64,000 nucleotides of DNA, taken from contig CALIVT010000018.1 of NCBI GenBank assembly GCA_938048185.1, positions 62,001-126,000 on the forward strand. Direction: 5' to 3'. The notes beneath the pieces were generated by a model. The model had not been told where the DNA came from and did not search any database. It saw only the letters and a list, made by a program, of their open reading frames with translations. Source of the stretch: an uncultured Arenicella sp. GTDB lineage: Bacteria > Pseudomonadota > Gammaproteobacteria > Arenicellales > Arenicellaceae. The first letter of the stretch is position 1. Every line of letters begins with the position of its first letter. Below, in pieces: positions 39,550 to 47,987 of the stretch. A program made the position numbers and the translations under genes.

Positions 39550-40680
39550 ATGTATAAAATGGCCGATTTGTTGCGCGCGATGATGGTAAAGAACGCGTCC
39601 GATATGTTCATTACCGCCAACGCCACGCCCAGTTTTAAAGTGGACGGCAAGATTTACCCGATTGCCGGTAACCCATTAGACCGAAAAGAATCGCAAGAGC
39701 TGTGTTACTCCATCATGAACGAGGAGCAACGCAGAATTTTCGAGAGCGAGAAGGAATGTAACTTCGCGATTCACCCCAAGCAAATTGGGCGCTTCAGGGT
39801 CAACGTATTTATTCAACAAGACAGCGTAGGCATGGTGCTGCGTGCCATTAAAACCAACATCCCGACAACCGAAGAGCTGCAAATTCCGGAAGTCTTGAAA
39901 AAGATGATCATGAAAAAGCGCGGTTTGCTGATCTTTGTTGGCGGAACGGGCACGGGTAAGAGTACGTCGATGGCGGCGCTAGTGGACTATCGTAATCGTA
40001 ATTCGCAGGACCATATAATTACCATTGAAGACCCGATTGAATATTTGCACACGCATAAAAAATCGATTGTTACCCAGCGCGAAGTTGGGGTAGATACCAA
40101 CTCGTTTGAAATCGCCCTGATCAATGCCATGCGTCAGGCACCTGATGTGATTCAAATTGGCGAAATTCGTACTCGCGAAACGATGGATGCCGCGATTGTG
40201 TTCTCCGAGACGGGGCATTTATGCATTGCGACGTTACACGCAAATAACGCCTATCAGGCCCTAGACCGAATTTTTAACTTCTTTCCAGCGGATCGGCGTG
40301 ATCAGCTATCGATGGACTTGTCCTTGAACTTGTATGGGCTGGTATCTCAGCGATTGCTGCCGGTAAAAGACAAAGAAGGCCGAGTTCCCGCGGTGGAAAT
40401 TTTGATCAATAGCCCGATGATTTCAGACATGATCAAAGACCACAGGATTGACGAAATTCGCAGTGCAATGGCGAAGTCAGTTGAATGGGGAATGCAGACC
40501 TTTGATCAAGCATTGTTTGACTTGCACGAACGCGATTTAATTACCTACGAGGACGCGATTAAAAACGCTGAATCCGAGAATGATCTGCGTCTCGCAATCA
40601 AGCTCAAAGGTAAGGACGCAGCGAAAACTGAGTTTGGTGAAACCTTGGCTGACGTCGGCTTTGAGGATGAAGAATTCTAG
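39550..40680 (+). CDS. pilU: type IV pilus retraction accessory ATPase PilU
   Basis: A 376-residue paralogue of PilT. Its Walker A is VGGTGTGKSTS; the Asp box is TIEDPIEYLH, the Walker B is APDVIQIGEIRTRETM and the His box is GHLCIATLHANNAY. The acidic C-terminal extension ending in ADVGFEDEEF is usual for PilU. PilU supports PilT-dependent retraction under load. The gene follows pilT and ends the conserved block before the A+T-rich island. Confidence 0.95.
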   Translation: MYKMADLLRAMMVKNASDMFITANATPSFKVDGKIYPIAGNPLDRKESQELCYSIMNEEQRRIFESEKECNFAIHPKQIGRFRVNVFIQQDSVGMVLRAIKTNIPTTEELQIPEVLKKMIMKKRGLLIFVGGTGTGKSTSMAALVDYRNRNSQDHIITIEDPIEYLHTHKKSIVTQREVGVDTNSFEIALINAMRQAPDVIQIGEIRTRETMDAAIVFSETGHLCIATLHANNAYQALDRIFNFFPADRRDQLSMDLSLNLYGLVSQRLLPVKDKEGRVPAVEILINSPMISDMIKDHRIDEIRSAMAKSVEWGMQTFDQALFDLHERDLITYEDAIKNAESENDLRLAIKLKGKDAAKTEFGETLADVGFEDEEF

Positions 40681-41176
40681 CGTTAGAGTTAGAAAGTCAT
40701 TGAGGCAATGAGCTGGGGGTTAGACGTCTAGATTAAATCTGACGATAACCTCATGAGTAGGTTTCAACCAGACCAGGCAGTCTGCTGATTTACCCGAAAT
40801 GGACGTTCGCTACCATGCTCAAAAATATAATGCCCGCTGTAAAAAGACAATGTTACATCCAGCTTGTGGAAAAAATTTATCTTCAAGTATTTTTGACCTG
40901 ATTGTTCTTTTTATACAAACAACTAATATCAGCCTACCCTTAACTGCCGTTATCCATTCGAGATCACAATGAAAAATAGATGATTAGTCATATTATTTGG
41001 GCGATTGGATATTAAGAACGCATAGACTTTGTTGTCAAATAACTTATTGGCGCTTTGCACATTAAGTGTAGAGATTGTAATCAATAATTTTTGTGCTTTG
41101 GATGAAAATAAGAAGCACATTAACAGCACACATCACTTGAGTTGACTTCGATTGTCTACTTAAGTTCGAGGTTTAA
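40681..41176. other. 496-bp gap at the left edge of the A+T-rich island
   Basis: No gene or RNA gene was recognised here. The composition becomes visibly A+T-rich past about 40840. It must hold the promoter for the 1200-residue protein gene. No inverted repeats, attachment-like duplications or transposase remnants were seen, so how the island was acquired is not shown. Confidence 0.6.
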
Positions 41177-44100
41177 GTGTTTAAATACAGTATTTTAGTT
41201 GCCATGTTATTGCTTGGTCCGATTGATCTAGGCGCTGCCGAGCAGCGCTACAGTAATTATGTAGGCGGTAACTCTTATCAAAAAAACTCAACGCAGTTTT
41301 TAACGTTCATCGATGAACGTTTTTTTTCGTATGAAGGCGATGAGAAAAAGTTGGATGTAAAAAAAATACGTAATGTGCAGCACATGCTTAGGACCAAGCA
41401 TAGGCAACTTTTAGATTCGTTTAAACAATCGGTTAAAATTGAGTTTATTAATAGGCATCAATATTCAGATAAAAAATCAGACAAACGGGCCGCAAATCGA
41501 ACGGGTAAGGCTGCTCGCGTAAACCTCCCTTTCACTGTCTTAGATGAGCGACTTGAATACTTAATTCAGAATCAAAATACGTTAACACCCAATCAAATAG
41601 AGGATGAAATTTCAACGTTGATGGTCTATTACCAGGCCGTCGAAAGTTATGATGATGAAAACCTCTACCAGCGAGCATTGGAATCTGTGAAGAGCTTATT
41701 GCCGCCTTGGTATGATATTCCTAAACTGAATCCGCCAGAGAAGGAGGCTCTTAACCTATTAGAAAATGATCAGTTTTTATCCACTGATCAATTGGTAGAA
41801 AAGCACAGGCAAAAAAAGGACTTTTCCTTATTAGACCCTCCAAATAGCGCGTTTTGGAATAATAATAACATTGAAGCGTTTGATCCAAACTCAGAAGAGT
41901 TTCTTGGCGAACGTTTTTTCCCACAAGCTGATGCGGTGATGGTTTATGACCGAATGGGAACGGGGCAGATTAAAATTAAAGCTGATTTTTATCCTGCTGA
42001 AACAAAAAATGTCTGTGCTACAGATTTGGACAACGGAAATGTAACTCTGCGCCTCGGTCAAGAAAATCAAAACCAGCTCATTGCTACCCAATTAGCGCGA
42101 GCGGTTGGCTATCCCTCAATTCCACATGTTTATCGTCCGCAAGTGAAGATGTATCTTTGTGACACGACTTTTGAAGCTTTTGTGGCTCAGTGGAAAGCAC
42201 TTCATGATACGAATCAAGGCAACTTTTTAAGCTACGGCGAATACCTTGAGGCTGAGCACGCTGTGTTGTTAAGGGGTGTGGCCCTAGAGTCCTATCCAGG
42301 TGATAAAAAGGATCGATATAGAAAGGTAGGGCCGTTTAATATTGAATCAATGAACTTAGGCCAACGTCGAGAATGGCGTGCATGGCTGGCGATGAATGCC
42401 CTCATTGGTTTGTTAGATGTTCGAGAGCTTAATTTTAGAATGGATATGTACAAGCCAGAGGGGAGCGGACAAGCTTGGCAGCCTCTCCTATACTTTAATG
42501 ACTTAGGGCGATCTTTAGGCTATCACTTAATTCGAACGCACGGCAACGCATCAGACTTTACTGGCAACTTAGCGAAGGACAAAGGTTCTTATGTTCGCCT
42601 ACACTGGGACCATTACCGAATTGAGCATGACCATTTTGACAGTACCACCGCCGCTGATGTCAAGTGGATGATTAGAAGGCTTGCGCGCCTATCAGATCAA
42701 CAAATCAACGACATAATAGATAATTCTGGTCACGTTCCAGCCGTGGCGGATCTATATAAAACGAATTTAAAGCTAAGAATTAAAAGCATGATCGATGCCT
42801 TCGATTTGTCAAACGAAGTGCAAACAGATCATAAAATTTTAAATTATCAAGAACTGTCGGATAAGTACCCGGGCTATGTATCTAAAAAAGGTAAATTGCT
42901 TGCCGCACTGGAAACAGAATCTCAATCGACAAGGCCGCTTGGGTATACCGCGAGCATCAATGAAATTTTATCGCTGGGTTTTGCAACACTCCTTCAAGCG
43001 CCGCTGTATGATTTGAGGCCGATTGCAGAATTGGACGATTTCTCTAAAGCGACAAACTTAAATTTCTCTGGTGACACGTTTGATCTAGGCTTAGGAGTTC
43101 GAGTCAGCTCTCAAAGACGCCTGTCAATCAACGAGGAGAAAACCGCGTATGAAAAGCGTTATTTGGTCGAAGATACGGCTTTCATTTCGATACCCTTAGG
43201 GTTGTTAGATCGAGATGTAACATCATCGAGAGGCTTTTTTAGTGGCCGTTTGCCATTGGGCGTACAGTATGTGTACGAATACAAGTACTATCATAGTCAT
43301 GACACGGTGGCTGAGGCAGCAAACACCCATTTTTTTAAGCGGCTAATGCCGTGGAAACTGCAAAGTATAAAAGATGATTTTTCCGCGGGTGAAGCCATCT
43401 ACAGCCGGACATCTTTTCAATGGACCGCAGGGAGCTTTCAACTTAGAACCGCCAGTGACAATGTCCGTTTTGAGCTCACACCGCTAGGTTTTTCTCAAAC
43501 GTTAAATGCAGACGAGTTTTATGCGTATAAAGAATCCCGCGATTTAGTGGAAGTTGTAAAAACAAATGGGACGTCCAGTGAGTGGAGATCTGGTGTTGAC
43601 CTAACCGGTTTGTGGTCTATCGCAGCTCTCCATTCAAATTCAAAAGAAAATAAAAATTATTCATATTTTAGATTTGATTTCTCTTCAGATGGAAATAGAG
43701 AAAAATTGGAAGAAGCTTTAACTGCCATTTTGCAAAAAAATGATTTTAATTTAGCTAGAGAATTCTCGGCAACATACGATTTGCTGCATAAAGTTAACAA
43801 AAGAGAGACAAGGTTATGTTTTCTGGCTTGGTGCCGTCAAAATAATAACCAAGACGGGGTGTTTGCAATTAAAGAGTATGCCAACGCCTGGCAGCAGGAT
43901 AATGGAGACAAAGATACGGAATTTTCTAAGCACACACTTCATCCGAAAAAAGAGCGCATTGTCATTCAAGGTCAGAGAATCAAGTCCAGCGATCGACAAT
44001 TAGCTAGGATATGGAATGAAGAAATAAGTTTGGGCGGTGCAGAGACAATCGCAAATTTTTTCTTGGGCTTAAGAGATGAAGCGTATTCGCAAAGGATAAA

Positions 44101-44779
44101 AATGGAGTCTGTTTACAATCCGAAAAAGCAAAAAGTCACAGGCATCGATGTAAGGGTGCAGCTAATAAAGACAGACAACTGGATGAAAGAAAACGAGTTT
44201 GAAAAGCTTAAAACTTTCTATGGAAACCGAGCTGATTATGAAAATAGAGAAGAGGCACGCGAGTATTTTGATTTTGAATACCCTAAAAATTTAAAAGCAT
44301 TATCGCCTGTTGCCTCTCAAATGACGTTGCAGCTTAAGATGCCAGGAGTAGTTCGACTTATTTCAGAACTCAGAAAAAACACGGAGCTCTGTAAAGAGCT
44401 TTGCCAACGGCGTTTAGACAGTCTTGGACGCTACGATTTGGAAAGCTTGGAAGGGGCTCAACGATTTAATAAAAAGTTCTTGCTGTTATTAGACGGCGTT
44501 TTGGGCAAAAAAATGCGCAAAATGGGCCGTATAAAAAGTCTGCTAGAAGACGATCAGTACTGGTTGATTGCCAGAATTACAAACCCTCTTCGCTATACAA
44601 CCCCGGTGTCTTTAGATGACGTTAATATTTCGCTTTTTGCTCCGGAGCAAGGTAAGTATCTTGGCCCAAGTTATTTAGAAAAATTCAGATACGAGCACAG
44701 TGTTGAGCCAATTCTATCTCGAGAACAAGTGGTTCCAGAGCAGATCAGTAGATCTCGCGGTCTGTTCGCTGATTTCTAA
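41177..44779 (+). CDS. large exported protein of unknown family with a kinase-like core
   Basis: A 1200-residue protein. Residues 1-21 read as a signal peptide (SILVAMLLLGPIDLGAA). Residues 50-220 are helical and charged. Residues 245-460 hold a set of motifs in the order of a protein-kinase-like fold: IKIKADF (Lys266/268), a helix NQLIATQLARAVGYPSIPH (299-317), LLDVRELNF with Asp414 and Asn419, and YFNDLGRSLG with Asp442. This resembles CotH or HipA-type kinases only in outline. Residues 600-1200 contain beta-rich stretches and match nothing I recognise. No lipobox is seen. The start follows a TAAGTTCGAGG stretch. The product would act in the periplasm or outside. It converges with a DUF4956 gene, a family often found with CotH proteins. 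Confidence 0.6.
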   Translation: MFKYSILVAMLLLGPIDLGAAEQRYSNYVGGNSYQKNSTQFLTFIDERFFSYEGDEKKLDVKKIRNVQHMLRTKHRQLLDSFKQSVKIEFINRHQYSDKKSDKRAANRTGKAARVNLPFTVLDERLEYLIQNQNTLTPNQIEDEISTLMVYYQAVESYDDENLYQRALESVKSLLPPWYDIPKLNPPEKEALNLLENDQFLSTDQLVEKHRQKKDFSLLDPPNSAFWNNNNIEAFDPNSEEFLGERFFPQADAVMVYDRMGTGQIKIKADFYPAETKNVCATDLDNGNVTLRLGQENQNQLIATQLARAVGYPSIPHVYRPQVKMYLCDTTFEAFVAQWKALHDTNQGNFLSYGEYLEAEHAVLLRGVALESYPGDKKDRYRKVGPFNIESMNLGQRREWRAWLAMNALIGLLDVRELNFRMDMYKPEGSGQAWQPLLYFNDLGRSLGYHLIRTHGNASDFTGNLAKDKGSYVRLHWDHYRIEHDHFDSTTAADVKWMIRRLARLSDQQINDIIDNSGHVPAVADLYKTNLKLRIKSMIDAFDLSNEVQTDHKILNYQELSDKYPGYVSKKGKLLAALETESQSTRPLGYTASINEILSLGFATLLQAPLYDLRPIAELDDFSKATNLNFSGDTFDLGLGVRVSSQRRLSINEEKTAYEKRYLVEDTAFISIPLGLLDRDVTSSRGFFSGRLPLGVQYVYEYKYYHSHDTVAEAANTHFFKRLMPWKLQSIKDDFSAGEAIYSRTSFQWTAGSFQLRTASDNVRFELTPLGFSQTLNADEFYAYKESRDLVEVVKTNGTSSEWRSGVDLTGLWSIAALHSNSKENKNYSYFRFDFSSDGNREKLEEALTAILQKNDFNLAREFSATYDLLHKVNKRETRLCFLAWCRQNNNQDGVFAIKEYANAWQQDNGDKDTEFSKHTLHPKKERIVIQGQRIKSSDRQLARIWNEEISLGGAETIANFFLGLRDEAYSQRIKMESVYNPKKQKVTGIDVRVQLIKTDNWMKENEFEKLKTFYGNRADYENREEAREYFDFEYPKNLKALSPVASQMTLQLKMPGVVRLISELRKNTELCKELCQRRLDSLGRYDLESLEGAQRFNKKFLLLLDGVLGKKMRKMGRIKSLLEDDQYWLIARITNPLRYTTPVSLDDVNISLFAPEQGKYLGPSYLEKFRYEHSVEPILSREQVVPEQISRSRGLFADF

Positions 44780-44790
44780 TTTGGTCAAAC

Positions 44791-44829
44791 AAAAAGATGC
44801 ATTTAGGTTTCTTTAATGTGTCTTTTTTT
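44791..44829 (+). terminator. terminator after the 1200-residue protein gene
   Basis: A 13-bp stem with two G-T wobbles (44791-44803 and 44815-44827), an 11-base loop and a T run to 44829, just 12 bp after the stop codon. Confidence 0.6.
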
Positions 44830-44856
44830 CAATCCCGTTTTCTAAGCCACAGTACA

Positions 44857-45441
44857 TTACTTACTGTGTTCGCACTTATGCCGTATGCGAATCTTCGTAG
44901 TGCCATTTGAAAAATCGATGGACTCAATATTCAAGTACGTTATATCAAAGCCCGTGCGTTGTTTTAGATCAGCGAGCAGAACAGCCCGATTTTCTAGTCC
45001 GATATTTTCAATTTTTTCATACTTAATCGTTGTTTCTTGAGTGACCGGGAGTAAAAAACGAACCTCTAAGGTATAAGCGAAGATGCATATAACGGCATTG
45101 ATTATAGAGAGCCCGAATAGGCTAATTGGGCCAACAGCGGTGATTAACGCGATTGAAATTACCAGAAATAGGTAGGTCATTTCTTTGATGGTTATCGACT
45201 CGGTTCGATACCTTAACATCGAAAAAACCGCGAACAGTCCGAACGCGAACCCCATTGAAATATCGGCCGAATGCAAGAGGTACGTTACCATAAACACACC
45301 GGCACCGAACATCATGAACGAGACGGCATAGGGTCGGTTTCTTGAGTGTTGGAAGTAACAGCCTCTTACTAACACAATTATAAAAATTGTATTAACAATG
45401 AAGCGCGCAAGAAAATTTAATTCCATCGTTAAGTCAGACAC
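44857..45441 (-). CDS. DUF4956 family membrane protein
   Basis: A 194-residue protein with four hydrophobic segments (residues about 8-25, 40-56, 60-73 and 85-125) and a C-terminal soluble domain. The pattern FGAGVFMVTYLLHSADISMGFAFGLFAVFSMLRYRTESITIKEMTYLFLVISIA is characteristic of DUF4956. The end ADLKQRTGFDITYLNIESIDF is the conserved tail. DUF4956 genes often stand beside VTC-type polyphosphate polymerase and CotH-type genes, but no VTC gene is in this window. The GTG start at 45441 has AGGTAGGAAC before it; ATG 45426 is poorer. Its function is unknown. Confidence 0.8.
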   Translation of the reverse strand: MSDLTMELNFLARFIVNTIFIIVLVRGCYFQHSRNRPYAVSFMMFGAGVFMVTYLLHSADISMGFAFGLFAVFSMLRYRTESITIKEMTYLFLVISIALITAVGPISLFGLSIINAVICIFAYTLEVRFLLPVTQETTIKYEKIENIGLENRAVLLADLKQRTGFDITYLNIESIDFSNGTTKIRIRHKCEHSK

Positions 45442-45801
45442 GTTCCTACCTTTTTGCTAATTTCTTTGAGTGGCGTTGAAGAAATTTTTTTCAAAATAAC
45501 TCTTTATAAATCCAAGATTAATTCACCCAGTAATTTACCATGCGTGAGAATATATGCACTTTTCTGTAGGCTAATTCTTAGTGTTTTTTGTTCGTTTGTG
45601 AATTTGATCCGAATGAACAGTCAACTATTTGGGCTGTACGCTGAAGGACGCGACAATTTTTCGTTAAATTACCGATCGCCCATAAACCGCCGTTTAAAAA
45701 AACGACAAAGGACTGGCCTATAATTCACTAAATTTAGTTGAACTACAATCTAGGCCCATGTAGCTTCGGTCTAGGGTTTTATATTAAATAGTAGTATCAA
45801 G
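45442..45801. promoter_or_regulatory. 360-bp divergent region between the DUF4956 and metallophosphoesterase genes
   Basis: A+T-rich and without a convincing gene. An 89-codon open frame at 45454-45723 lacks a start signal and homology and is not accepted. Promoters for both divergent genes must lie here. A few short A/T runs (such as TTAAATTACC) were seen, but no operator. Confidence 0.5.
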
Positions 45802-46998
45802 ATGATCAACCGAAGACGGCTATTGTTAGGTGGCGCACTCGTATCCACTCTAGGAGTATATTCACATCAACGAGGGATTCGTTACCCTTGGCTCTCATTT
45901 GAACATAGCGCACTAGCTGCTACAGTTTTATCGTCTGATCAACTAGACCTTGATCTTCGAGATGCTATTGCTGTTGATAGTCAAACTATAAGAGCCACAG
46001 CGCCTGAGCCTAGTATTCTCATTGGGAGACTAGAGGGTTCGGCCTCCGTTAAGGTTCTAAATCTTGCAAACAATGCAATACTCAAAATAGATGCAAGCGC
46101 ATCGGCTGACATTGAAGAGGAGGTTGATGGCACAGCTCGAATAGTACATATAAAAAGGGCAAGTCAAGGCACCGCGCTTAAATGGTCTCTTCCAGTTACC
46201 GACGGCTTCGAATTTGCCGTGATGGGCGACACTGGCGGCGGCCCAGAACTCGCTTGGACCCTTAAACGTGCGCATGAGTTAGGGGCGCAGTTCTTACTGC
46301 ACCTTGGTGATTTTAACTATAATCAAGGTGAGTATGATTCGGGGATTGAACAGTTCAATAACGCCAAGCTACCGTGTTACGTCGCAATTGGAAATCACGA
46401 ATTTCACGACGGTGGTTTGATATACGACAAATTCCTCTCGCAGATCGGCCCAATGAATCAGGTCTTTGAGTTGGCTGGGACACGATTTATTAACATCGAC
46501 ACAGCCGTTGATTTTTTGCCCGCGTACTCGGGCCATCGAGGCGCGTTGTTTAATTCTTTAATGAAGGCAGAGCCCTTTAATGGTGAGCAAATAATATTCA
46601 CTCATCGGCCCCTTCAAGATCCAAAACCCCATGATGATCATGAAATTCATGGTCTCGGAGAAGTTGACTGGCTAGTAAGACAAAGTCATAAACTTGGTGT
46701 TAGCACTTTCTTATGCGGTCATGTTCACCACAGTGCCGAGCTCGAATACCAAGGTTTACGGCAAATTACCGTCGGTGAAGGCTTAGGTTATGAAGACTTA
46801 GTATTGCAAAAACCCGTCGCAAAAATAATGATGGCCTCAGTTGAACCACACAAAAAGTTAGTTCATCGGTGGGTCGATCTCAATATGCCGTGGTCTGAGC
46901 ACCAAAACCCCATCCATTTAAGGCAGCTAAAATCCGGGAATTTGCAGAGACAATTGGAATGGTTCATGCAACTACAGAAAAACATGAAAACTGCTTAA
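45802..46998 (+). CDS. Tat-exported calcineurin-like metallophosphoesterase
   Basis: A 398-residue protein with a Tat-type signal (NRRRLLLGGALVSTLGVYS at residues 3-21, double Arg). Residues 22-135 are an unassigned N-terminal domain. The phosphoesterase domain has all the metal motifs: MGDTG (Asp143), LGDFNYN (Asp170), GNHEF (198-200), FTHRP (His268) and CGHVHH (306-310). These bind a di-metal centre that hydrolyses phosphoesters or polyphosphate chains; the substrate is unknown. Its layout recalls purple acid phosphatases. It is transcribed away from DUF4956 and ends near pyrB. Confidence 0.85.
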   Translation: MINRRRLLLGGALVSTLGVYSHQRGIRYPWLSFEHSALAATVLSSDQLDLDLRDAIAVDSQTIRATAPEPSILIGRLEGSASVKVLNLANNAILKIDASASADIEEEVDGTARIVHIKRASQGTALKWSLPVTDGFEFAVMGDTGGGPELAWTLKRAHELGAQFLLHLGDFNYNQGEYDSGIEQFNNAKLPCYVAIGNHEFHDGGLIYDKFLSQIGPMNQVFELAGTRFINIDTAVDFLPAYSGHRGALFNSLMKAEPFNGEQIIFTHRPLQDPKPHDDHEIHGLGEVDWLVRQSHKLGVSTFLCGHVHHSAELEYQGLRQITVGEGLGYEDLVLQKPVAKIMMASVEPHKKLVHRWVDLNMPWSEHQNPIHLRQLKSGNLQRQLEWFMQLQKNMKTA

Positions 46999-47069
46999 GT
47001 AATTTGTAATCGGGCACGGGCACGGCTACAAAAAAAAGCGGTTAAAATAGTCTGGGGCGAGTCGGAACA

Positions 47070-47987
47070 TTAGGCCTTGCCCAGTAGCATTGCCAGTAAC
47101 GCCATGCGTACTGGCACACCGTAGCTTGCTTGTTCGAAATAGACTGCGTTAGGTAGATCATCTACCTCTGTGCAAATTTCGTCTATGCGCGGCAGTGGAT
47201 CTAGAATTAAACAACCGCTGTTCTCGACATCTGCTTTGGTGAGGCGATATTTTTGCCGATTCTTTTCAAATAACGCGCGATTTTCAAAGCGCTCTTCTTG
47301 CAGGCGGTTTACATACGCAACGTCGTAGCCATCGTGTAAGTTTACGTCGCTGGTGACTGTGCATTGTGCGCCTAAGTCCTCAAGTTCCTTGATCAGTGAG
47401 GCACTTGGTTCTAATTCGCCCGGGCCGGTAAACGTAAATCGATTGCCCTGATATTGCGCCAATAAACGCGACAAGGAATGAATGCTGCGCGATTGTAATG
47501 AGTCAAAGCCGAAGACAATATCTAGGTCACTAAGCCGTCCCTTTTTTTTGTGGATGGTGTAAGCATCGATCAGCGCTTGCGTTGGATGTTCATTGCCGCC
47601 ATCACCGGCATTAATAAACGGCACTTTACTGGTGTTGGCCGCGATATCCGCGCTGCCAGGCATTGCGTGACGCATAACGATGATGTCGGAGTAACTTTCG
47701 ACCATGCGAATTAAATCTTCGAGGCTCTCACCTTTTTCAAACGAGGTGCTGGCCGCATTTTGCGCAAACACCATACCGGCTTTTAGACGCTGTGCGGCGC
47801 TTTGAAAACTCATCATGGTTCTTGAGCTAGGCTCAAAAAAGAGTAGGGCGACGACCTTGTCATCTAATAATTCGATTCGGCCTTTGGCTTCGATGCTCGC
47901 CGCCATGTCATCGATAACAGCAAACAGCTGCTCGATTATTTTGGGCGTCAGTTGTTTAGACGAGGTCAGTGACTTGAATGGGAGCAT
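47070..47987 (-). CDS. pyrB: aspartate carbamoyltransferase catalytic subunit
   Basis: A 305-residue transcarbamoylase for pyrimidine synthesis. The carbamoyl-phosphate motif is FEPSSRTMMSF, a variant of STRT. IVMRHAMPGSADIA and EHPTQALIDAY hold the key Arg, His and Gln, and DPLPRIDEI replaces the usual HPLPR, with the Pro-Leu-Pro kept. The length and sequence look more like E. coli PyrB than like the longer Pseudomonas enzyme. No pyrI or pyrR is adjacent. It marks the right edge of the A+T-rich island. Confidence 0.9.
   Translation of the reverse strand: MLPFKSLTSSKQLTPKIIEQLFAVIDDMAASIEAKGRIELLDDKVVALLFFEPSSRTMMSFQSAAQRLKAGMVFAQNAASTSFEKGESLEDLIRMVESYSDIIVMRHAMPGSADIAANTSKVPFINAGDGGNEHPTQALIDAYTIHKKKGRLSDLDIVFGFDSLQSRSIHSLSRLLAQYQGNRFTFTGPGELEPSASLIKELEDLGAQCTVTSDVNLHDGYDVAYVNRLQEERFENRALFEKNRQKYRLTKADVENSGCLILDPLPRIDEICTEVDDLPNAVYFEQASYGVPVRMALLAMLLGKA

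Follow-up and report, generated by a model that had tools for sequence, protein, structure and literature searches.

Introduction

The genes encoding DUF4956, VTC and CotH proteins make up a gene group that has already been published, and published descriptions of the DUF4956 protein give it an MgtC-like domain in the membrane and an ACT domain in the cytoplasm (PMC7112168, PMC12345266). In Streptococcus intermedius, Pel-dependent aggregation falls when the genes for DUF4956 (SIR_1592) and CotH (SIR_1594) are deleted (PMC12345266). CotH is a protein kinase of the PKL fold, and the source of its ATP outside the cytoplasm is an unanswered question (PMC7821199). How proteins become phosphorylated outside the cytoplasm is an open problem, ATP being scarce there. 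A tractable case is offered by a compact module in which a putative kinase and a phosphatase, both exported, are combined with a membrane protein that usually comes with a polyphosphate polymerase.

In the current study, we describe such a set in a 64,000-nucleotide stretch (the window) of the 3.1-Mb genome of an uncultured Arenicella sp. (G000). It resembles the CotH/VTC/DUF4956 genes of Gram-positive pel loci (S. intermedius SIR_1592-1594) in combining a DUF4956 membrane protein with a large exported protein, here named Big, that we predict to be of kinase type; VTC is present in a sister genome (G003) and persists as a relic in the window. It differs in that Big does not match CotH in sequence, VTC has been deleted in the window, and a Tat-exported, purple-acid-phosphatase (PAP)-like metallophosphoesterase (MPE) has been added; moreover, it lacks pel genes, is divergently oriented, and moves as a cassette. 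The initial annotation, which called the set undescribed, was therefore too strong on this point. The window set is best read as a variant of the published kind, with Big in the place of CotH, a phosphatase added, and the polyphosphate polymerase lost. Our preferred account, to which we assign a probability of roughly 0.4, is that the block derives from that kind and serves as a transferable phosphate module of the envelope.

Organization and composition of the locus

The open reading frames of Big, DUF4956 and MPE are real and constitute the whole gene content of the pilU-pyrB interval in the window (Table 1). Since the DUF4956 gene is transcribed opposite to Big and MPE, the three genes are not one operon.

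Table 1. Features of the pilU-pyrB interval (positions are those of the window)
Feature	Position	Strand	Description
pilU	39550-40680		Left neighbour of the three-gene block
Inserted stretch	40681..47069	.	pilU stop to pyrB stop, ~6.4 kb; pilU and pyrB adjacent in 11 other Arenicella
Big	41177..44779	+	1200 aa; N-terminal signal peptide (hydrophobic 1-22); six cysteines
Predicted kinase-fold domain of Big	41849..42856	+	Residues 225-560; HipA/PI4KII/CtkA-like; candidate catalytic D414 and N419, candidate metal-binding D442
DUF4956 inner-membrane protein	44857..45441	-	194 aa; ~4 TM helices and a cytoplasmic tail (hydropathy)
VTC-type polyphosphate polymerase relic, 5' end	45453..45581	-	Codons 2-44; other ~225 codons deleted
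MPE	45802..46998	+	398 aa; purple-acid-phosphatase-like metallophosphoesterase; PF00149 (Metallophos) E 2e-8
pyrB	47070-47987		Right neighbour of the three-gene block

Both the low-GC character of the interval and its insertion between pilU and pyrB, as claimed in the initial annotation, were confirmed. The GC contents of Big (41.4%), DUF4956 (41.2%) and the less A+T-rich MPE (45.5%) lie below those of the flanking genes (46.8-52.9%), GC3 is 0.40-0.48 in the block against 0.50-0.57 in its flanks, and the lowest-GC 5.8-kb stretch of the whole window starts at ~40.4 kb. Big has a GC content of 40-41% in relatives as well, so that its low GC is not peculiar to the window genome. The distance from pilU to the downstream pyrB is no more than 1.5 kb in 11 other Arenicella genomes, where the block is missing (gap in relatives roughly 30-150 bp, versus ~6.4 kb here), from which it follows that the block is an insertion in the window. 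The same spot is occupied by a solo MPE relative together with other genes in three further genomes (G002, G012 and G013), and is thus a variable one; these solo relatives lie downstream of pilU at L061:2253-3536, L062:3541-4548 and L064:3005-4237, respectively. No integrase or transposase ORF, tRNA or significant terminal repeats were found at the block. A classical genomic island or a phage origin was rejected on these grounds, phage genes being absent as well.

Movement of the block among Arenicella genomes

Four closely related Arenicella genomes (G000, G003, G007 and G010; pilU 94-95% identical) carry Big, DUF4956 and MPE in identical order and orientation, distributed over three chromosomal sites. 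In G007 (L008) they lie between a membrane hydrolase gene and a homocysteine methyltransferase gene, which adjoin each other in the empty site of G008; the left flank in G010 (L007) matches that of G007, and the G010 contig stops within MPE; G003 carries the block at the third site. Empty sites in relatives are thereby known for two of the three sites. The recurrence of the same genes in the same arrangement at different sites shows that the block moves as a unit among sister genomes, and does so without a recombinase, tRNA or terminal repeats. The idea that the three genes travel together accordingly holds within Arenicella, although searches beyond that genus did not recover the exact trio. 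All three genes are under purifying selection (dN 0.12-0.13 and dS 0.9-1.6 between G000 and G007), and the resulting dN/dS of about 0.07-0.13 indicates that they are functional. At the end of the G010 contig, beside the start of MPE, lies a tandem repeat (AATAAAGAGCCTTCAGCC; L007:13450-13623), which perhaps caused the contig break.

Big, a predicted exported kinase-type protein

Big is present in 4 of the 18 Arenicella genomes searched. Beyond the genus, searches of plasmids, phages, viral contigs, a 369-genome sample of the class and a 398-genome sample of the phylum returned marginal hits at chance level. No sequence match was obtained in Pfam, NCBIfam or PDB, and comparisons directed at kinases (Pfam, hmmsearch against PDB, and hhalign or profile-profile comparison with CotH, CotH-like and HipA sets) were uniformly null, column-shuffled controls equalling the profile-profile scores of Big against the CotH, CotH-like and HipA alignments. 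Likewise, no match to the CotH kinase family (PF08757) was found in G000.

The best conserved part of the mature protein is residues 230-545, with 89% identity between G000 and G007 as against 76-79% in the rest. An AF2 model of residues 225-560 was weak (pLDDT 45, pTM 0.41), and that of full-length Big, built with four close relatives, was unusable (pLDDT 29). Foldseek gave no match below E 0.001 for the domain model. With VIA-align, the top 14 rows were all CtkA, PI4KII, HipA or Fam20C (Z 6.8 to 3.5), the first being CtkA, which the output describes as a kinase of Helicobacter pylori; the tool itself notes that Z values below 8 can arise by chance, and the rows below rank 14, in which unrelated proteins appear from Z 3.3 down, were ignored. 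D414, N419 and D442 are invariant across the four close relatives, and the catalytic loop of Escherichia coli HipA (LIGATDGHAKNF, D309/N314) aligns with LIGLLDVRELNF of Big (D414/N419) in both pairwise and profile comparisons, neither score being significant. In Smith-Waterman comparison with E. coli HipA, 16 of 3000 shuffles reached the score of Big and unrelated ORFs scored similarly, which makes the similarity a lead only. We consider it more likely than not that residues 225-560 adopt a kinase-like fold; the remaining 640 C-terminal residues have no assignable fold.

Among described kinases, HipA and CtkA are the solved structures that come nearest to the predicted domain (Z up to 6.8), and the candidate D-x4-N loop falls in the same register; Big differs in having a signal peptide, no HipB-like antitoxin partner and no significant sequence similarity. 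With CotH kinases (PF08757) it shares export, a position beside DUF4956 and VTC, and a predicted fold of the PKL type, but it has no Pfam CotH match, its structural matches are nearer to HipA and CtkA, and it extends to 1200 aa with a 640-aa C-terminal part.

MPE, an exported metallophosphoesterase

MPE shows all five metal-ligand motifs of the purple acid phosphatase and calcineurin-like metallophosphoesterases (PF00149; GDxG, GDxxY, GNH(E/D), H and GHxH), here GDTGG, GDFNY, GNHEF, FTHR and GHVHH, which are conserved in its paralogues, and its Pfam match is above the cut-off; it departs from that family as an Arenicella-type paralogue. A twin-arginine Tat signal (MINRRRLLLGG; MINRRRLLLGGALVSTLG) was identified by inspection. 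Together with the signal peptide of Big and the ~4 TM helices of DUF4956, this agrees with the earlier prediction that two products are exported and the third is a membrane protein. G000 holds two further copies of MPE (58% and 44% identical), one of a type found genus-wide and the other of a type spread over the order. Since solo paralogues occur in the genus away from DUF4956, MPE need not be dedicated to the block.

Loss of the VTC gene

In G003, an intact VTC-domain protein of 268 aa (PF09359, E 4e-27) is encoded between MPE and DUF4956, and none was found in G000, G007 or G010. The window retains a relic that matches the intact G003 protein at 51% over 43 aa (tblastn, E 3e-10) and its DNA at 73% over 133 bp, is broken by an in-frame stop, and runs directly into the DUF4956 start; G007 and G010 retain VTC traces at the same position. 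The relic-matching stretch appears to be coding sequence and not a leader, because the motif F..SLKEL ahead of RVDSKF, which forms part of it, also occurs in the VTC protein of G212 (L098), a gammaproteobacterium outside Arenicella. The ancestral block was MPE, VTC, DUF4956 and Big, and the VTC gene has been deleted in three of the four block genomes. The intact gene in G003 and the relic in the window connect the block with the CotH/VTC/DUF4956 gene group of the literature, Big taking the CotH position.

Neighbourhoods of DUF4956 in other genomes

The DUF4956 protein of the window matches PF16316 (E 6e-48, 163 bits versus a cut-off of 30.6), and the family is rare in the class-wide sample (13 of 369 genomes). 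We examined 13 gammaproteobacterial DUF4956 genomes other than Arenicella, including two of the same order (G029 and G036). VTC lies on the same contig within ~6 kb of DUF4956 in 10 of these 13, and a CotH match is found there in 7. A porin adjoins both of the closest DUF4956 relatives found, namely a phosphate-selective OprO/P porin in G212 and a probable porin on a Pseudoalteromonas replicon. VTC, DUF4956, the OprO/P porin and a two-component system stand in a row in G212 (L098:2287-7438). In G261, the order is VTC, a PiT phosphate transporter, an HlyD-type protein and DUF4956; this one-strand cluster (L106:1358-7545) also encodes a 406-aa protein that is TolC-like by eye, and looks like a cluster for polyphosphate synthesis and export. 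On Deinococcus and alphaproteobacterial plasmids, DUF4956 and VTC are accompanied by CotH, acid phosphatase, PiT or phytase-like proteins; a HAD acid phosphatase and a phn transporter are likewise among the neighbours of DUF4956 relatives.

Such neighbours lend themselves to a second explanation, phosphate scavenging, in which MPE would free periplasmic phosphate from organic or polymeric sources, DUF4956 would regulate or mediate its uptake or storage, and Big would be a binding or scaffold protein. The OprO/P and probable porins, PiT, HAD acid phosphatase, phn transporter and phytase-like proteins beside DUF4956 all fit this explanation, the porin, phytase-like protein or acid phosphatase of other genomes being cast in an MPE-like role, as do the PAP-like motifs of MPE and the absence of a kinase sequence match for Big. 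Nevertheless, the third partner in the commonest DUF4956 neighbourhoods is a CotH-type kinase, the structural matches of Big are kinase-like (albeit from a weak model), and the window set includes no phosphate transporter or porin; we regard scavenging as unlikely.

A third explanation, modelled on what has been proposed for the streptococcal Pel-linked CotH/VTC/DUF4956 genes, is that the block controls an exopolysaccharide or adhesive surface layer through phosphorylation. The reduced aggregation of the S. intermedius DUF4956 and CotH mutants (PMC12345266) argues in its favor, and both exported products, Big and MPE, would act outside the membrane; against this, at the sites examined, polysaccharide synthesis genes were seen neither within the island nor next to it, and we hold this explanation to be improbable.

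A proposed envelope phosphate module

In the module that we prefer, exported Big would act as an atypical phosphotransferase, with a HipA/CotH-like fold, on an envelope or surface target, and MPE, exported in folded form via Tat, would remove phosphate or trim phosphoesters. DUF4956, with its MgtC-like helices in the inner membrane, may connect the module with phosphate in the cytoplasm; in the ancestral block, it may also have connected it with polyphosphate produced by the VTC enzyme. Phosphorylation by Big is a prediction from a low-confidence model, and the catalytic activity, substrate and phosphate donor of the protein, like the role of DUF4956, are inferred. Because VTC was deleted while the other genes were kept under selection, the putative kinase, the phosphatase and the membrane protein would work without it in G000, G007 and G010; the loss also weakens any role for polyphosphate in the window genome. 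The initial suggestion of phosphorylation and dephosphorylation at the envelope, or of polyphosphate handling, consequently stands as far as the class of phosphate chemistry is concerned, given the former VTC gene and the VTC, CotH kinase, phosphate porin, PiT and exported phosphatase neighbours of DUF4956 relatives, whereas phosphorylation itself is predicted.

In favor of the module are the occurrence of the trio at three sites, the VTC gene of G003 with its relic in the window, the VTC and CotH neighbours of DUF4956 in other gammaproteobacteria, a second trio with like roles (see below), the kinase-type structural matches of Big, and the published findings on S. intermedius and CotH. Several points count against the module: Big has no kinase sequence match and a poor model, MPE has solo paralogues, and DUF4956 is transcribed opposite to its partners. 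That the set is instead a vestigial remnant of a polyphosphate module minus its key enzyme, with its genes together through linkage only, would suit the VTC deletion and the relic but is highly improbable, given that Big, DUF4956 and MPE are intact under strong purifying selection and have kept their order through transfers to different sites.

A non-homologous trio was found in five other Arenicella genomes and in G274, a member of another family; its members are a CotH-like exported protein of 360 aa, a PPP-type phosphatase that is also exported, and a DUF4956 protein of larger size. In the Arenicella loci, the phosphatase and DUF4956 genes share a strand and either overlap or abut. Two unrelated sets, this one and that of the window type, thus unite an exported kinase-type protein, an exported phosphatase and DUF4956 without VTC. 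That unrelated proteins fill the same roles in other genomes provides a functional handle on DUF4956, a family that few of the papers searched mention. A wider proposal, and an unlikely one, is that Big founds a previously undescribed family of exported kinases of very large size, that the kinase slot beside DUF4956 can be filled by unrelated kinases (CotH, CotH-like and HipA-like) paired with an exported phosphatase, and that DUF4956 modules would serve reversible phosphorylation outside the cytoplasm in general, with exported polyphosphate as their ancestral supply in place of ATP.

As a separate observation, the exported PPP-type phosphatase of G274 (L107:2530-4344, minus strand), encoded next to the CotH-like and DUF4956 genes, carries a C-terminal extension of ~250 aa. 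Profile comparison with the CotH sets was null; by eye the extension contains kinase-like motifs, suggestive of a possible phosphatase-kinase fusion.
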